A stretch of 32,754 bases of DNA. Source: a virus. A program made the translations under genes and the position numbers. The first letter of the stretch is position 1. Each line of letters starts with the position of its first letter. The notes below the pieces were generated by a model, which did no database searches, was not told the origin of the DNA, and was given only the letters and a program-made list of their open reading frames with translations. Shown here piece by piece: positions 9,522-16,755 of the stretch. The DNA lies in the IMG/VR virus record IMGVR_UViG_3300006162_000034, positions 1 to 32,754 of that record, one strand, 5' to 3'.

Positions 9522-10588
9522 TTCGGCTCCTTTTCTAAGCCGAGGCGAAAAAGCTCGCCATAGGGTTCATAGCCAAGGCGACGATAGAGCGTCCCTAACC
9601 GAGGACCAGAACCACGAATGCCGGCGCGAGCAAAAACCTCCGACACCCCGCGCTCGCGCAAGCGGTCAACCGCGTTGCGTTCTAACTTCATGCCCAAGCC
9701 TGGAAAATCCGGGGAGGCATAAACAGGAAAATGCTGCGCCATCCAGTGATCGCCATCCAGAGACGGGGAAATGATGGACATCAAATACCCGAACATCCGG
9801 CCGTTCATCCGCGCGGTGACAATCTGCATCATGCCCATCTGGTCGATTTTGCGCGCAATGGGGATGTTCTTGGTGCGGAAATCGTCCACGTCCTGTCCGG
9901 TCACAACCATGTGCTGCCGAAACAAGTCCTGAGCATCGCGGAACCAATCGTCAAACCGTTCGACGTTGAATGTCATCCCGTCAATGTCTTTTGCTTTCGG
10001 GGCGAGCGCGGCCATCGACATTTGTCTTGCCGTCCGTGCCAGCTTTGTTAACTGTGGCGAATATGCCACGGCATACCGATGCTGCGCGAGCAGATCACCC
10101 GAAACTTTCGTCTGGTCCCACTCATGCCACCACGCCGTATCGTGCTGGTATGGGAGGCAATGCTCAAACACTTCAGCGCAGACATCCTCGCGCGGCAAAT
10201 CCTCGAACCGGACGGACAGAACGCCGGGAACCCGCCGCTCAATTTGCGCCAACTTCTGGTCCGTGCGACGGATGATCTTGGCCATCGCGTCACGATCAAA
10301 GACAATGCCCGTTGCGGTCAAACTTTGCATAACCGCGTCTGTGTCACGGCGCAGCACGACAACCCGAAGGTTTGGCCATTGGCGCATAGCAAACCGCCAG
10401 AATGGCGCCGCCGCCGTTTCAACAGACCCCGTGTTTGGTTGTTTGAACCAAGAGACAAGATCGTCCTTGGTCCGCATACGCAAAATCTCATCGTGCCCGC
10501 ATCGCCAATCGCGATAGGACAAAAACCGCGACATCCAATATGTCCGCGACCTCGGCGGTCCGAAAACGAGGAACGGCGGCGCTGTCAT
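9509..10588 (-). CDS. Sulfotransferase-like / GNAT acetyltransferase fusion
   Basis: 359 residues; the start overlaps the previous stop as ATGA. The N-terminal half resembles PAPS-dependent sulfotransferases: FLVFGPPRSRTYWMS at residues 6-20 fits the 5'-phosphosulfate loop (GxPRSxT), NLRVVVLRRDTDAVMQSL at 73-90 fits the 3'-phosphate-binding strand and helix, and VLSVRFEDLP at 123-132 fits the conserved strand. The C-terminal part from about 205 looks like a GNAT N-acetyltransferase: MMQIVTARMNGRMFGYLMS strands at 253-271, PVYASPDFPGLGMKLERNAVD at 288-308 as the acetyl-CoA loop and helix (split here around PG), and GTLYRRLGYEPYG at 332-344 as the final strand region. GNAT proteins occur beside tail genes in phages; the fused sulfotransferase-like half is unusual. 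Substrates are unknown. The first Arg loop has R15 where G is usual, so sulfotransferase activity is uncertain. Confidence 0.7.
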   Translation of the reverse strand: MTAPPFLVFGPPRSRTYWMSRFLSYRDWRCGHDEILRMRTKDDLVSWFKQPNTGSVETAAAPFWRFAMRQWPNLRVVVLRRDTDAVMQSLTATGIVFDRDAMAKIIRRTDQKLAQIERRVPGVLSVRFEDLPREDVCAEVFEHCLPYQHDTAWWHEWDQTKVSGDLLAQHRYAVAYSPQLTKLARTARQMSMAALAPKAKDIDGMTFNVERFDDWFRDAQDLFRQHMVVTGQDVDDFRTKNIPIARKIDQMGMMQIVTARMNGRMFGYLMSIISPSLDGDHWMAQHFPVYASPDFPGLGMKLERNAVDRLRERGVSEVFARAGIRGSGPRLGTLYRRLGYEPYGELFRLGLEKEPKWAQ

Positions 10589-10893
10589 GCGACCCCAGGT
10601 GGCGCGGCCGATGGGGTAGGCGATGGCGGCGCGGTCTTGCCACTGGCCGCCCGCAACAAAGCAATGAACCCTTCCTGAATTTGTTTTTCAGCAGCGGCCA
10701 AGCCGGCCTGATCCGTTGTCGGCAGAGATTTCAATTGCTGGATGAAGGCACCCGCCTCTTGTGCGATCTTTTGCGCAACCTTGCCCAGCGTCATGGCCGG
10801 GGTTCCTGGCGCCATACCTGGGGCCGGAGCCGGCATACCTTGCGTCGCGCCCGCCACAACCGGACTTGCCGGCGCCGTCATTGTCTCGCTCAT
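10585..10893 (-). CDS. Small Ala/Pro-rich hypothetical virion protein
   Basis: 102 residues. A Pro/Ala/Gly/Met N-terminal region (PAPAPGMAPGTPAM) leads into a helix of about residues 37-85 (GKVAQKIAQEAGAFIQQLK, GLAAAEKQIQEGFIALLRAA) and a Pro-rich tail. It overlaps its upstream neighbour and the fusion gene by ATGA junctions, so translation is coupled. The layout resembles the 137-residue protein encoded before the scaffold gene (Met/Gly/Pro-rich head plus one helical segment), though the sequences are not clearly homologous. Function not recognised. Confidence 0.65.
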   Translation of the reverse strand: MSETMTAPASPVVAGATQGMPAPAPGMAPGTPAMTLGKVAQKIAQEAGAFIQQLKSLPTTDQAGLAAAEKQIQEGFIALLRAASGKTAPPSPTPSAAPPGVA

Positions 10894-11225
10894 GAAACCC
10901 CCAATGAATCAGAAGCCGCTTCGTGTTCCAGGCGATGCAGATAAATCCAAGCCTCCAACTGAGACGGGTTCTTGAAATCAACCTGTTCCAAGTTGCTGCC
11001 TTGCGTCTTTAACACACCATTGAAATCGTTGTGTGCAAGCTGATTACGCGCAAGCCACCGTTCCTGCTGTTCGGGATCGATCGGATCAAGTGCGTATTCC
11101 GTCAAGGACACACCGTATTTGGCTTGGATCGCTTGCCGGATCAAAGCATGGGAGTCCCTATGAGCAAAGCTCCACACTGCCCAATCGGATGCCGTCCTCG
11201 GCGTATTCATCAAATCCGCGAGCAT
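10890..11225 (-). CDS. Hypothetical tail-region protein
   Basis: 111 residues, soluble and mostly helical, beginning MLADLMNTPRTASDWAVWSF and including LIRQAIQAKYGVSL, PEQQERWLARNQLAHNDFN and LEAWIYLHRLEHE. No domain is recognised. The WxxxNQxxHNxxN pattern followed by a lysine/leucine-rich helix is seen in small proteins beside tail genes of podovirus-like phages, so a tail-assembly role is plausible. It starts 2 nt after the previous stop and ends in an ATGA overlap with the next gene. Confidence 0.6.
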   Translation of the reverse strand: MLADLMNTPRTASDWAVWSFAHRDSHALIRQAIQAKYGVSLTEYALDPIDPEQQERWLARNQLAHNDFNGVLKTQGSNLEQVDFKNPSQLEAWIYLHRLEHEAASDSLGVS

Positions 11226-11226
11226 A

Positions 11227-11487
11227 TCACTCTCCCGACCGGTTCCGGTTCCCGGTCTTGTGAGCCACCCCGATCAAATGGGAACTCGCACCCGGACCAA
11301 ACGGCGTATCGGCATACCGATCCGGCATTGGCATTTCCCAACGCGAGCCATGGATGCCAGGGGCATAATTGCTTTGATGGTTTACCCCATCGCTTCGGTC
11401 CGTGGATATACCGTTCGGCGTGACGGCCACCATTCCATTCGGGTTCTCGCCGTTGGCGTAGAAACGCTTGAACCGATCCCTACTCAT
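11227..11487 (-). CDS. Small hydrophilic hypothetical protein
   Basis: 86 residues preceded by a strong AGGAGG site (AGGAGGTCGC then ATG). It is rich in Asn, Gly, Arg and Ser, with no predicted helix of note or hydrophobic segment (MSRDRFKRFYANGENPNG, ending HKTGNRNRSGE). Disordered or small beta structure is likely. It is encoded between the tail-hub gene and a helical small protein. Function not recognised. The clean ribosome binding site and tight packing show that it is a real gene. Confidence 0.6.
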   Translation of the reverse strand: MSRDRFKRFYANGENPNGMVAVTPNGISTDRSDGVNHQSNYAPGIHGSRWEMPMPDRYADTPFGPGASSHLIGVAHKTGNRNRSGE

Positions 11488-11495
11488 GCGACCTC

Positions 11496-12842
11496 CTAGC
11501 CGACCATGGCTTCTATGTCTCTATACGCCAAGCTCAAGCCAGATAGCAAGAAGTCCGCCGAAGTGCTTGTAATGACAGCACCAATAGCAGTGCCGGGGAC
11601 GTTTGCGGTTTGGCCGCCCCAGCTTGGGAGCGTGCCGTTCGGCGCGACAATGTTGGGGTTGGTCAAGTTCTGGGCGGACTGCGACGAAAGTCCAGATGGA
11701 TATGCCCCGGCTTGAGTGTTCCATCCCTCGCCTTGCATTGTCGCGGTCAAAGCCACGCCACTTTGCCCCGGCGATTTGTCGGTTATCCTGTAGAACATGA
11801 GCAAGGTTTGCTTCATGACCATTTCTCGTTCGCCACCATAAAGCTTGGTCGCAATGGTTTTCGCCAACGACGTGGAAGGCTGGGCAAACAGTGGATACAA
11901 GCTGATACCATCCGTGCCCCATGCCGTCATGGCGGAATTTTGTTCCTGCGTTCCAATAAATGTCAGGTTTACCGACTGGGTTGCAACGAAATAATTTTTC
12001 TGATCCCACGCGACCATGACATTCCGAGGCGCCATGGTGTTCGGGTCCACCACGGTCATGAGAAGCAAATAGACCGGGATTGTATGGATGTTCGCGACGG
12101 CCGAGGAGGGCAGCAGCGCGCTTCCGCTGGGAGGGAAAATGGCGTTGTCAAACAAGTCATTGATCTTGCTGGACACCCGCCGCACATCGCCGCCGTATAT
12201 GCCTTGGATGCCGTTCTCATTGGCAAACAAAACAGACTGCCCGAAATCCTGGATGCTGTCGCGCCACGCGGCGCCGATTTGGCTGTTCGTGTTCTGATAA
12301 TTGAACGTGGTAGAAGATGGATTGCCGCTGGTTTGCACGTTGGAAATCACGCTAACCGACGAATCACCCATGGGATACAAGTAGCCGTTGGATTGACGCA
12401 GGGCGGTATAGGTTGCCCTCAAAAACCGGTCGCTTGACGAATACAAAAGGCCGCCCGCCGACGTGGCAAAATTGGTGACAGACCCCGGAGCCGATACAAC
12501 AAACGTCCCGGCGGGGTTGGCCGACCCGTTTTGTGCGCCCGAAGAAATCCACACGCGATTAAGAAAAGTCTCAATTGAAGTCCCGGAAATGCCATACGGC
12601 ATGAGGGACAACGTAGCCGACGCCGCGTTGTTGAACCCCGGCGACACGATCACGGCCGGCACAGATGTATAGCCCGACCCCGGCGCCGTCACCGTAACAG
12701 ACGCAATGGCGCCACCAGACATATTAGCTACGGCTGTAGCCCCTGTTCCTCCGCCACCGGAAAACGAAATAGCTGGGGTTGCAATGAACCCACCGCCACC
12801 GTTAGACACCGCGACGGAAGATACCTGCCCGGCGCCGATCAA
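11496..12842 (-). CDS. Tail-hub/stabilisation protein, C-terminal part (after frameshift)
   Basis: This frame continues the gene that begins at 13816; the apparent TTG start at 12842 has no ribosome binding site and sits inside a repeat. The sequence opens with two more Gly-rich modules (SNGGGGFIATPAISF and APGSGYTSVPAVIV). A beta-rich domain follows with NRVWISSGAQNG, LLYSSSDRFLRATYTALRQ, AWRDSIQDFGQSVLFANE, IYGGDVRRVSSKINDLFD and VMVAWDQKNYF. This is the layout of propeller-like tail-hub proteins that cap or stabilise packaged DNA in short-tailed phages (P22 gp10 or T7 gp12 type). The similarity is recognised by pattern, not alignment. The role would be the part of the tail tube below the adaptor. 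Confidence 0.7.
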   Translation of the reverse strand: MIGAGQVSSVAVSNGGGGFIATPAISFSGGGGTGATAVANMSGGAIASVTVTAPGSGYTSVPAVIVSPGFNNAASATLSLMPYGISGTSIETFLNRVWISSGAQNGSANPAGTFVVSAPGSVTNFATSAGGLLYSSSDRFLRATYTALRQSNGYLYPMGDSSVSVISNVQTSGNPSSTTFNYQNTNSQIGAAWRDSIQDFGQSVLFANENGIQGIYGGDVRRVSSKINDLFDNAIFPPSGSALLPSSAVANIHTIPVYLLLMTVVDPNTMAPRNVMVAWDQKNYFVATQSVNLTFIGTQEQNSAMTAWGTDGISLYPLFAQPSTSLAKTIATKLYGGEREMVMKQTLLMFYRITDKSPGQSGVALTATMQGEGWNTQAGAYPSGLSSQSAQNLTNPNIVAPNGTLPSWGGQTANVPGTAIGAVITSTSADFLLSGLSLAYRDIEAMVG

Positions 12843-13816
12843 GGCAATCGCCGCCGCGCCCCCCCCCCACCGCTGGCGAAAGAGACCGTTGGAGTGCTGG
12901 TGTAGCCCGATCCGTTGGCCGTCAAACCTATCGAAACCACAATCCCGCCGGCAACCGTGAAAACGCCCGCCGCCCCCGAACCGCCACCACCACCGGAAAA
13001 CGCCAGAGCGTGAACGCCGTTCGTATATCCTGTTCCCCCGGCCAAAAGGGTAATGGCTTCGATTGTTGAAGCTGCCAAGGACGCTATCAGCACGGCAGCG
13101 GTATCCCCTCCGCCACCTGAAAAAGCTACCTGCACAACGTCATTTGGCAGATATCCCGTCCCCGCATTGGTAATCTGGTAAGAAACCACCGATCCGTTCG
13201 CTATCGCGGGCGTGAGAGTGACGCCCGAACCGGAACCCCCAAATACGGTGTAGCTTGGGGTGCTTGTGTAGCCCGCTCCCGCGCTGGTCAACTGACCAAT
13301 CTGATAAGGTCCAACGGCGCCAGCGCCATACAGCACGGCCCCATCCCAAATCCAATAATCGTTGGACGTATTGTTGTTCCCAATAAGCAAGTATTGCTCG
13401 CCGCTTTGAACGCCAAACGGCAACTGGCCACCACGATAAAATGTGCTGAATGTGCTGGTAATCGTAGTCACGGCCCCGTTGGATTGAGCCACTTGGACAG
13501 CCGTCCCGTCGCTCAGAAAAATTGCGACGTATTGCGCGGTTCCAATGTTAAACCACGAAAAATACACGATTTTTTTGCCGCCCGTCGCGGTATAGAGCGC
13601 CGTTCCTTTATCCCAAATCGTGCGCAATCCTGCACGCCCCACCAACAAAAAATTTTCAAGCCAAAAAAACTCTTGGTCCGCTATGGCCGTGCGGGCGTCC
13701 TCTTGGTTCATTCCCGAAAACGGAAACGCCGAGTAGAATTTCATATCATTGGGAATGTTCAGCGCTTTTTGTTCGCGCTGCGTCAAATCGGCAAGCCTCC
13801 GATTGCTTTCAGACAT
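12839..13816 (-). CDS. Tail-hub/stabilisation protein, N-terminal part (before frameshift)
   Basis: 325 residues as encoded. Residues 1-180 form a beta domain (FYSAFPFSGMNQEDAR, FFWLENFLLVGRAGLRTIWD, YFSWFNIGTAQYVAIFLSDG, YLLIGNNNTSNDYWIWDG) like the N-terminal region of tail-hub proteins. From about residue 185 four Gly-rich modules follow (SAGAGYTSTPSYTVF, NAGTGYLPNDVVQVAF, AGGTGYTNGVHALAF, ANGSGYTSTPTVSFA). The frame then enters a run of ten G and ends with the off-pattern tail ARRRLP. A -1 shift on the run joins it to the 11496 frame, giving a protein of about 770 residues in which the module series continues without a break. Its start overlaps the adaptor stop by 1 nt. Confidence 0.7.
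   Translation of the reverse strand: MSESNRRLADLTQREQKALNIPNDMKFYSAFPFSGMNQEDARTAIADQEFFWLENFLLVGRAGLRTIWDKGTALYTATGGKKIVYFSWFNIGTAQYVAIFLSDGTAVQVAQSNGAVTTITSTFSTFYRGGQLPFGVQSGEQYLLIGNNNTSNDYWIWDGAVLYGAGAVGPYQIGQLTSAGAGYTSTPSYTVFGGSGSGVTLTPAIANGSVVSYQITNAGTGYLPNDVVQVAFSGGGGDTAAVLIASLAASTIEAITLLAGGTGYTNGVHALAFSGGGGGSGAAGVFTVAGGIVVSIGLTANGSGYTSTPTVSFASGGGGARRRLP
12859..12868 (-). other. Run of ten G in the coding strand at the frame change
   Basis: Ten consecutive C on the plus strand lie exactly where the reading frame of the tail-hub gene must change. The zero frame reads GGT GGG GGG GGG GCG CGG and stops six codons after the run. Re-reading one G gives GGC GCG GCG GCG ATT GCC, which continues the repeat pattern into the downstream frame. 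Eight or eleven G in the DNA would do the same without slippage. Possible explanations are a sequencing miscount, strand-slippage phase variation, or programmed -1 ribosomal frameshifting on a G-run. Confidence 0.9.
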
Positions 13817-14574
13817 TACATCACCGCTGGATATCGTGTCGGCACCTTGCCACGGTCTACCGACCCGCGACGCTCCGTGTTGCTCGCCAGGAAACGGCTA
13901 TACATGATTTCTGCGGACCCGAATGCCCCGCGCGCTTCATACGCTCTGGCCGCAGCATAGTATTTGACGCCGGTTCGGAACGGGTCGGGGATCACGTCGT
14001 AATCGTCGTTGTTATAGATTGGGCCAGCCGTGCAAAATGTATCCCATTCCATCTCGTTTGCCGACTGCGGGACTGGGAACAACCAAACTTCCCCGGCTTC
14101 CCCGTCGTTGTAGACCGAAAACACCACCGGATAGTTGGTCACAAGGATGATGTTGGACCGGCAAAACGCCTGAAATTCCTCGAACGGCATCCAATCCAAA
14201 GAAGGACGCACAGCGCCGCCCCAAGACCCCGAAACCGAAATCACGTCGCAAACGCCGCGCAAACCCCTGAATTGTTGGTTCAGATAGTTGTTGGCATATC
14301 CGATAAAAGGATACCGCTCTTGACCCGGTATGGTGCTGAATGTGCTTCGGGGCGTTGACCCAGGCATAGCACCGCCTGCCACGGCAGAACCGGGCACGGC
14401 CGAAGCCCCAAAGGGAGAAATCCCCACGATCAAACGACGAACGCACCCCGTCAGTTCGGAAGTCGCGGCGCGGGCGTCGTTGATGTATCGGATAAGCTGG
14501 GGTTGCGTGACAAACAACCCCTGCTGATCCCGGATTAAGTCCCTGGTTTCGTCGATGTAGTCTTGCAGAGACAC
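13816..14574 (-). CDS. Head-tail adaptor / connector protein
   Basis: 252 residues. The N-terminus MSLQDYIDETRDLIRDQQ followed by QPQLIRYINDARAATSELTG is the helical opening typical of head-tail connector and tail tubular A-type proteins, which form a ring below the portal. A central beta-containing part (IGYANNYLNQQFRGLRGVCD, SLDWMPFEEFQAFCRSN, VWLFPVPQSANEMEWDTFC) and a final helical hairpin (YYAAARAYEARGAFGSAEIM) also fit. It is placed between the capsid-proximal beta-repeat protein and the tail-hub gene, as expected. Assignment rests on the pattern and gene order. Confidence 0.7.
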   Translation of the reverse strand: MSLQDYIDETRDLIRDQQGLFVTQPQLIRYINDARAATSELTGCVRRLIVGISPFGASAVPGSAVAGGAMPGSTPRSTFSTIPGQERYPFIGYANNYLNQQFRGLRGVCDVISVSGSWGGAVRPSLDWMPFEEFQAFCRSNIILVTNYPVVFSVYNDGEAGEVWLFPVPQSANEMEWDTFCTAGPIYNNDDYDVIPDPFRTGVKYYAAARAYEARGAFGSAEIMYSRFLASNTERRGSVDRGKVPTRYPAVM

Positions 14575-14580
14575 ACGGGG

Positions 14581-15651
14581 TTAGCCCTGTTGAATCCACA
14601 GGAAGTCATTCTGCCCACCGACACCCAAGGTCAGCGTCGCCACCGTCAGCGCCGTAGCACCGATGGCCAGCGCGGAGATGTTGGACGTGATGCCGCCGAT
14701 ATGACCGCCGTCAATGAGCGTCTGACCGGTCGCGGTGATGACCGTGCCGCTCAGTGCACCCGTGATGCTCGCGGGGCGGGTGCGGAGGAACGATGCTTGG
14801 CTGTTCGGGTTGGTGTAAGCCGTCGCCGTGGTCGGGATGCCCGTGCCTTGGGTGACGATTTCCACCGTGCCGGTGTAGCCGGTGCCGCCGTTGGTCACCG
14901 CGTAGGACGTGACCGTCCAATCCATGATGACCGTCGCCGCCGCCGAGGCGCCACCGCCACCCGCGAAAGACAGGGTGGGCACCGTGCCGGACGTGATCGG
15001 AAACCCGTGATCGGTGCAAATAACCCCGGTAACGGTCTGCAACGTAGAAAGGGTCGTGGTCGCGGTCGCGCCGCCGCCAACCGTGTCCCGAGGATCGTTG
15101 AGCAGCGTCACGGACGGGGCGGTAAGATAACCCGCACCTTGGTTCAGGATCGTGATCGAAGTCACGGCGCCGGCCGAAATGGTGGCATAACCCGTGGCTG
15201 GGATGCCGGGGGATGGCGGCGGAGCGATGAGAACTTGCGGCGCATAGACGTAGTTCGATCCCGCAGTCACAACCGAAACCGTGGTGCTGATCGCCGCGCC
15301 CATGATGGCAACCCATTTGGAGTTGCCCGCCGAAGGCGTGATCGTCGGGGCCGAGGTATAACCCGCGCCGGCCTGCGTCAAAAGCGCGCCAACCGGGCAC
15401 GATGTCTGGTTTGCCACGCGATAGTTGCTGCCGTCGCTGTCCACCTGCATCCACATGCCGGGGGCGGCGCCAACCGGGCGCCAAATGCCCATCACGGGGT
15501 CGAGGGTTTGCACCGACGAATACGGGCCGGGCGTGAGGTTGAAATACCCCGGCGGAACAATGAACACCTGACCGGCCTGCAACGAGATTTGGTTGCTGCC
15601 AATTTGGTTCAACGGCAGGGAGATACCAACGCCACCATAACGATTAGGCAT
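14581..15651 (-). CDS. Beta-repeat structural protein, possible head decoration or fibre
   Basis: 356 residues starting after AAGGA. The N-terminal region (ISLQAGQVFIVPPGYFNLTPG, split after VFIVPPG) looks like a small beta domain. It is followed by Gly-rich modules QAGAGYTSAPTITPS, NQGAGYLTAPSVTLL and NGGTGYTGTVEIVTQ, of the same kind as in the tail-hub and tail proteins. The C-terminal part has a hydrophobic beta end (LTLGVGGQNDFLWIQQG). It lies directly after the major capsid gene, where decoration or head fibre genes are often found. The long plus-strand frame opposite it is a shadow caused by codon bias. No enzymatic motif. Confidence 0.65.
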   Translation of the reverse strand: MPNRYGGVGISLPLNQIGSNQISLQAGQVFIVPPGYFNLTPGPYSSVQTLDPVMGIWRPVGAAPGMWMQVDSDGSNYRVANQTSCPVGALLTQAGAGYTSAPTITPSAGNSKWVAIMGAAISTTVSVVTAGSNYVYAPQVLIAPPPSPGIPATGYATISAGAVTSITILNQGAGYLTAPSVTLLNDPRDTVGGGATATTTLSTLQTVTGVICTDHGFPITSGTVPTLSFAGGGGASAAATVIMDWTVTSYAVTNGGTGYTGTVEIVTQGTGIPTTATAYTNPNSQASFLRTRPASITGALSGTVITATGQTLIDGGHIGGITSNISALAIGATALTVATLTLGVGGQNDFLWIQQG

Positions 15652-15663
15652 GGGAGAAGTTCC

Positions 15664-16755
15664 TTATACCAGGGGTTGGCCGTTAAAGCCAGTTTGAGAC
15701 GCGATAGCAGGCGGCGGAGACGGCGGGCCAGACCATGCGGGCGATTGAAGCCCGGTAAAGTGAGCGCCCGAGGAAGGTTTCATGCAGCACATATTCAACG
15801 CCGAAACCAAGACGCCGATGCTGGCCAACTGGCCTTGCGGGATCATGGACTCGAACCCGGTGAAGAACATTTGCACCGAGGGGTGCATGAACATCGCAAG
15901 GTAGCGCGAGTTGATCGCATACATTTCGCCCACCGGGCAGAACATATCCGGGAACACCGGCACATCGAGGATGCGAACCGCACGGAACCCGGCGTTGACC
16001 GGGTTATCGCGGCCATACCGCGAACGGGGATCGGTGTTGAACACCTCGGCGCCCATGAAGTCCGCCATCAACGATGCCCAGTTGATTGGGTTCATCACGA
16101 TGAAGTCTGGCGCCTCGCCGCCGGCACCGGTCTGCGTCTTGATGATCGCGTTGGCAACGCCGAGGCGGTTCACGATGGTCGCGCTGTTCGGGTAATACTG
16201 GCCCTGCCAGTAACCGTTGGTGCGCGGGATGCCGCCGTAGGTGGCGACGTTGGTGCCGTTATCGTATGCACCGACCAAAGAATCCAACGCCAGCGGGTTG
16301 GACGTGTAGGAGTAAAGCGAGGTCGCAAGCGCCTGCTTCATCACCACCGCCGCATCGGATGTCACCGCCCGAAGCTTGGGGATGACGACTTCCGAGGACT
16401 GAATGATGCTTTCAAACCCGAAGAAGCCGATGGGCACCATGCCGGCTTTGAGGTTGAACTGCGCGTTGTTCAACGCGACCTGATCCTGCGGGATTTGGAA
16501 GTCGCCGCCGAAACCGCCCCACTGGAACGACGTGAAGGACGAACCCTGCACCGGGAAGGTAATCTGACCGACACCGCCCATCGCGGCCTGCGTGTTGGCC
16601 AGCAAAAGCGAAAGCAGCGGGTGCGACTGGTAGACCTGCACATAGACGCTGGGGATGATGGCCCGGCGCGTGATGTAGCTCAATTGCTGCCCGGTAAGAC
16701 CACCGGGAACAATGCCGCCGCTAAGCGCGCTGGTAAATTGGGTAGAACCTGACAT
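15664..16755 (-). CDS. Major capsid protein
   Basis: 363 residues preceded by AAGGAG. It directly follows a coiled-coil scaffold gene and precedes the head-tail genes. Features that fit an HK97-fold capsid protein are the N-arm, the segment VPIGFFGFESIIQSSEVVIP, and a long helix with LATSLYSYTSNPLALDSLVG. The core includes PDFIVMNPINWASLMADFMG, AVRILDVPVFPDMFCPVGEMYA and YLAMFMHPSVQMFFTGFES, and the C-terminal tail is Pro/Ser-rich. Length and high Gly/Ala content fit. No sequence search was possible, so the exact family is not named. Confidence 0.75.
   Translation of the reverse strand: MSGSTQFTSALSGGIVPGGLTGQQLSYITRRAIIPSVYVQVYQSHPLLSLLLANTQAAMGGVGQITFPVQGSSFTSFQWGGFGGDFQIPQDQVALNNAQFNLKAGMVPIGFFGFESIIQSSEVVIPKLRAVTSDAAVVMKQALATSLYSYTSNPLALDSLVGAYDNGTNVATYGGIPRTNGYWQGQYYPNSATIVNRLGVANAIIKTQTGAGGEAPDFIVMNPINWASLMADFMGAEVFNTDPRSRYGRDNPVNAGFRAVRILDVPVFPDMFCPVGEMYAINSRYLAMFMHPSVQMFFTGFESMIPQGQLASIGVLVSALNMCCMKPSSGAHFTGLQSPAWSGPPSPPPAIASQTGFNGQPLV

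Follow-up and report, generated by a model that had tools for sequence, protein, structure and literature searches.

In the parts of PMC9509320 available to us, the nozzle protein of phage SU10 has a platform and a seven-bladed propeller, and its nozzle domains are insertions between blades 2 and 3. Another tail-module system, the lambda gpG/gpGT pair, is a tail assembly chaperone that is absent from mature virions and present in many phages, according to an excerpt of PMC5009743. Poly-G runs are described in partial sources as hypermutable and as drivers of phase variation in bacteria. In addition, a survey of 1,106 prokaryote genomes for frame transitions (PMC3711429, in excerpt) anticipates that a singleton whose fused homologues are intact is a sequencing error and not a genuine indel.

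We analyzed a putative tail nozzle gene that is interrupted at a run of ten G in an IMG/VR virus record of 32,754 bases, the whole of which is referred to here as the window. The features that concern us are the following.

12859..12868, minus strand: run of ten G (ten C on the plus strand) at the frame break, read directly from the sequence
12839..13816, minus strand: N part of the putative nozzle gene, 325 aa, with its TGA stop at 12839-12841
11496..12842, minus strand: C part of the putative nozzle gene, listed as 448 aa from TTG
12830..12856, minus strand: predicted GC-rich hairpin (surrounding stretches fold with z of -1.8 and -1.9 against shuffles)
13816..14574, minus strand: SU10-type adaptor protein, upstream neighbor of the nozzle gene (Pfam PF24175, SU10_adaptor, 39.3 bits against a cut-off of 27)
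14581..15651, minus strand: protein with Gly-rich beta modules (phrog_701, phrog_460, phrog_708, and others common to both nozzle parts)
15664..16755, minus strand: major head protein (phrog_9953)

On the minus strand, GGT is followed by exactly ten G (12868 down to 12859) and then by CGCGGCGGCG, which begins CGCGG, and the zero-frame codons across the run read GGT GGG GGG GGG GCG CGG CGG CGA TTG CCT TGA. The zero frame from 13816 traverses the run and reaches the TGA (12841-12839) six codons after the last GGG; the frame of the C part, which ends at 11496, is offset by -1 relative to that of the N part. Coordinates, lengths, and frame arithmetic thereby confirm the initial annotation, made from the sequence alone, which had described a ten-G run, a stop six codons later, and a -1 offset downstream. 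The final six codons of the N part, past the run, lie outside the homologous frame, and the homologous frame of the C part extends back to the run, beyond the listed TTG. Since the frames around the break, from 10585 to 16755, are open and tightly packed, general frame damage is not indicated.

The ten-G run is the longest homopolymer of the window, in which G/C runs of length 6 occur nine times, a run of length 7 once, and no other run exceeds 7. Its mere presence is not improbable, given that a first-order Markov model of the window produced a G/C run of at least 10 in 21% of 300 simulations. Chance does not account for its placement exactly where the frame breaks between the halves of one gene. 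The other Gly runs of this gene are written in mixed codons.

The same Gly-rich beta modules recur in the second head-tail module protein (14581-15651, minus strand), and module proteins also lie upstream of the nozzle genes of relatives. The head protein (15664-16755) is 38% identical to the capsid protein of MW202825 and 37% identical to that of MW202753. A 729-residue open frame (14563-16752, plus strand) lies opposite the head protein and module genes; sequence composition probably accounts for it.

The most likely product of the gene is the tail nozzle of an uncultured phage with a short tail, an identity that we derive from Foldseek and VIA matches to the tail proteins of such phages. 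An alignment was made of twelve intact relatives, of which the closest, L002, was modeled with AF2 at moderate confidence (pLDDT 65.6, pTM 0.56); the structural evidence comes from this model, to which the two window parts are tied by 56% and 58% identity. By its structural matches, the model agrees with the nozzle fold (platform and beta-propeller). Foldseek ranks 1-22 are all tail proteins of short-tailed phages, including those of T7 (gp12), SU10, GP4, and Sf6, and VIA rows 1-30 are exclusively tail-complex chains of short-tailed phages, named nozzle proteins included, with Z of 13.2-19.5 over 289-364 aligned residues, after which Z falls to about 10. The genomic setting is that of a head-tail module, with the gene beside the adaptor (PF24175, 13816-14574) and the head protein at 15664-16755. 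Where the initial annotation had proposed a tail hub, in the long-tailed-phage sense, the L002 model (Z up to 19.5) points instead to the tail nozzle of a short-tailed phage; its assumption of an essential structural protein is supported. The Gly-rich module array, in which the G run lies, is probably a nozzle-type insertion.

Sequence searches were less telling about identity. Pfam gave no match for either nozzle part, and the PDB sequence search returned no solved nozzle and a single weak match, to Dpo31/Dpo36 tailspike/fibre entries (E 0.04). Naming the gene by PHROGs was set aside, as both parts find their matches mostly in the Gly-rich modules rather than in the nozzle core.

Relatives were sought in IMG/VR separately with the N part and the C part. 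All 15 relatives that reach the equivalent point cross the junction in a single uninterrupted frame; 13 of them carry the complete gene, and in the other two, L014 and L017, the contig ends past the junction but within the gene. A sixteenth (L005) stops before the junction, and L018-L022 have only modules in common with the window gene. Several loci look like near-duplicates with identical scores and positions (L002/L006, L012-L014, and L016/L017), so the number of independent relatives is about eleven. In the 13 complete loci, both parts lie inside one frame of 765-946 residues. More specifically, the alignment with L002 takes in N-part residues 1-318 and C-part residues 1-448, separated by seven residues, and comparison of the translated parts with this relative indicates that the module series carries on over the junction. 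The proposal that the 325- and 448-residue frames form one protein thus stands, and the comparison with homologous phages that the initial annotation had suggested as a check has come out in its favor.

The run itself is not shared. No long poly-G tract is kept in the 13 relative nozzle genes, the longest G run being 6, in a single gene; their Gly runs also use mixed codons, with internal G runs of 2-5. A second copy with the same flanks and 4-20 bases between them was absent from the viral contigs, a set from which near-identical records were possibly excluded. The module array differs in length among the nozzle genes of L002-L016 (whole ORFs of 765-946 residues), as if modules were gained and lost among relatives.

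A scan of GTDB genomes yielded one relative (L246), on a 3.3-kb contig of a Bryobacterales bog MAG, whose frame is open past the junction but has a run of N within the module array; it gives a weak hint at the setting of the host, given that the contig is small and its binning may be wrong. A DNA search of a phage collection with 7.8 kb around the nozzle gene found no match. The protein search (P0001) led to two uncultured circular phages, MW202753 and MW202825, each with one 1989-nt CDS there, labeled 'baseplate wedge initiator' in one and hypothetical in the other. Because the matches are confined to C-part residues 41-441 and 41-347, these phages give no certain information on the junction and were not counted.

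Since the relatives carry the gene unbroken, a miscounted or drifted G run is likelier than a new gene-control trick. We consider it probable that the window holds one continuous nozzle gene and that the length of the run is wrong in this metagenome-assembled contig. The break occurs once, at a homopolymer, while the homologues are intact, which is the pattern of a homopolymer error. The inserted domain would be a tandem array of Gly-rich beta modules, and for that reason the DNA of the nozzle gene would carry G-rich stretches. The run of one module would have been recorded as ten in the contig, through a miscount at the homopolymer in sequencing, error correction, or assembly, and this would put the second half of the gene out of frame. 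Ordinary translation would then give a single unbroken nozzle protein about 770-780 residues long. When the -1 frame is read after the slip, the module spacing, judged by eye, equals that of L002, which a real slip would give as well. Further points count against a wrong run length: ten G is shorter than the tracts of >14 in which, as noted in the available part of PMC8808543, spurious Illumina indels especially occur, and 14 of the 24 coding G10 tracts among the matches listed in our census are in frame.

A first alternative is a programmed -1 shift at the G run, either ribosomal or by transcriptional slippage, yielding a 325-residue and a full-length nozzle from one gene. We assign this a small probability. 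Slippery heptamers follow the pattern X XXY YYZ, and G GGG GGG (zero-frame GGG GGG with a G before) formally fits it, contrary to the initial remark that a pure G run would make an unusual slippery site. The offset is exactly -1, the predicted hairpin begins 2 nt past the run, and there is precedent in the form of low-level frameshifting on record for a seven-G run in another virus (PMC5009743, in excerpt). The hairpin nonetheless appears unremarkable, the z values of the stretches around it being only -1.8 and -1.9, and the 60 nt preceding the run lack a Shine-Dalgarno-like motif that could act as a booster. Moreover, the spacer between heptamer and hairpin is 3 nt here against the usual 5-9 nt. 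It is lack of conservation, not the motif, that makes the case against a slippery site: neither the site nor the break is shared by the relatives, 15 of 15 being continuous and none of the 13 complete genes having a G run >6. The short form would lack the conserved C-terminal half, ending partway through the module array, and most nozzle subunits would be truncated, unlike in the gpG/gpGT chaperone pair. A literature search on G-run slippery sites in phage tail genes gave no match to the full query. A marginally smaller probability still goes to the variant in which ten G is real and a slip on the pure G run in a glycine-repeat domain gives two nozzle forms and tails of mixed short and full-length subunits, making this a recent, lineage-specific recoding site.

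A true split into two coupled genes, with the C part restarting at a TTG that overlaps the stop (TTGA), appears very improbable to us. The TTG (12842-12840) does overlap the TGA (12841-12839); against this, we see no ribosome-binding motif at a workable distance from it, the homologous frame reads through the TTG as an ordinary codon, a beta module would be cut by the split, and no relative is split.

How often G10 tracts coincide with frame breaks was examined in a census of the same IMG/VR collection, which holds at least 221 loci with exact G10 tracts (101 for one flank and at least 120 for the other); an earlier, looser run had covered one flank only. A codon-usage score trained per contig served to ask whether the coding frames on either side agree. 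Excluded were 66 loci with the tract <240 nt from the locus end, 114 without a confident gene on both sides, and 3 too short for the codon model. Among the matches listed, 38 loci were scored in addition to the window; 22 were in frame and 16 out of frame (10 with a -1 and 6 with a +1 offset). At a score of at least 20, 28 of the listed tracts remained (16 in frame and 12 out), and merging repeats left 24 (14 in frame and 10 out, five -1 and five +1). G10 tracts are therefore not broken by rule among the matches listed. The score is crude, in that it rated one and the same gene as broken in L149 but as in frame in L203. In addition, L070, L100, and L105 are one repeated sequence, whose coding status is doubtful.

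Ten of the 16 broken candidates were checked for families, five pairs with Pfam and PHROGs and five with Pfam only, leaving out L070, L100, L105, L149, L177, and L196. Five of the ten pairs match consecutive stretches of one family among the matches listed: L074 and L226 (phrog_498), L168 (phrog_67), L216 (phrog_424), and L147 (Pfam GcrA). In L226, phrog_498 positions 29-220 lie before the tract and 221-441 after it, and in L216, phrog_424 positions 159-266 precede and 268-412 follow it. The other five (L036, L039, L128, L182, and L237) gave no family match on either side in Pfam or in Pfam and PHROGs. Given that the breaks fall in unrelated genes and in both directions, their cause appears tied to the tract and not to the nozzle gene. 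Among the matches listed, 26 of 80 whole IMG/VR contigs also have their G10 tract no more than 200 nt from an end, against 4.1 expected, and this excess near contig ends suggests that assemblies stumble at them.

The census is, however, not a pure sample of errors, because three of the five confirmed broken genes encode DNA methyltransferases, a class known, in the partial sources consulted, for poly-G phase variation. Accordingly, real length variation may contribute to the G10 base rate. These methyltransferase genes are split exactly at G10 (L074:279-1887, L168:145-1081, and L226:771-2083), and two are joined to a ParB-like part.

The nozzle run might likewise be real, with the ten-G allele one of several lengths that replication slippage keeps as a mixed population; phages with G10 would then be non-functional or switched off, as dead variants or, if the change is reversible and selected, by phase variation. 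We regard this as unlikely, though less so than frameshifting. It draws on the hypermutability of poly-G known from bacterial phase variation (partial sources) and on the run being the longest homopolymer in the window. Yet the nozzle, given its role as a core virion part in the excerpted PMC9509320, offers no obvious gain from being switched off; long G runs are absent from the nozzle genes of the relatives, where a conserved switch would have them; and the literature sought on homopolymeric phase variation and phage tail proteins, in the portions available, deals mostly with bacterial loci and receptors.

Collectively, a wrong run length is most likely, followed by a real slippage variant, with a small probability left for a recoding site. 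Among frameshift, phase variation, and error, the options offered by the initial annotation, error is thus the best supported, and a programmed frameshift is left without conservation or clear stimulators. If the length is indeed wrong, G10 runs in metagenome virus contigs are unreliable for reading frames (10 of the 24 coding tracts among the matches listed are split), and a structural gene broken at one of them is no ground for assuming recoding. If the run is real, it would mark recoding or switching in a virion protein that is essential, which would be surprising.

Compared with known systems, the locus resembles homopolymer-length errors and poly-G variation in assemblies, in that a singleton break falls at the longest homopolymer, relatives are intact, and other G10 tracts behave alike; unlike in read-verified cases, the error at this locus is a probable one. 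With lambda gpG/gpGT it shares a tail-module gene of a phage and a -1 offset at a slippery-looking run, but the window gene encodes a structural virion protein, in one phage, with no conservation. At the sequence level, the protein differs from known nozzles in matching no solved one in the PDB. The fold of the L002 model is that of podovirus nozzles (SU10 gp17, T7 gp12, P22 gp10, Sf6 gp8, GP4, VP1, Pa223, and the phicrAss001 muzzle). The position agrees too, with an SU10-type adaptor immediately upstream of the gene, and SU10 gp17 likewise has domains inserted in its beta-propeller (PMC9509320, in part); unlike in the solved podovirus nozzles, the insertion in the window gene would be a Gly-rich beta-module array, variable in length among relatives.
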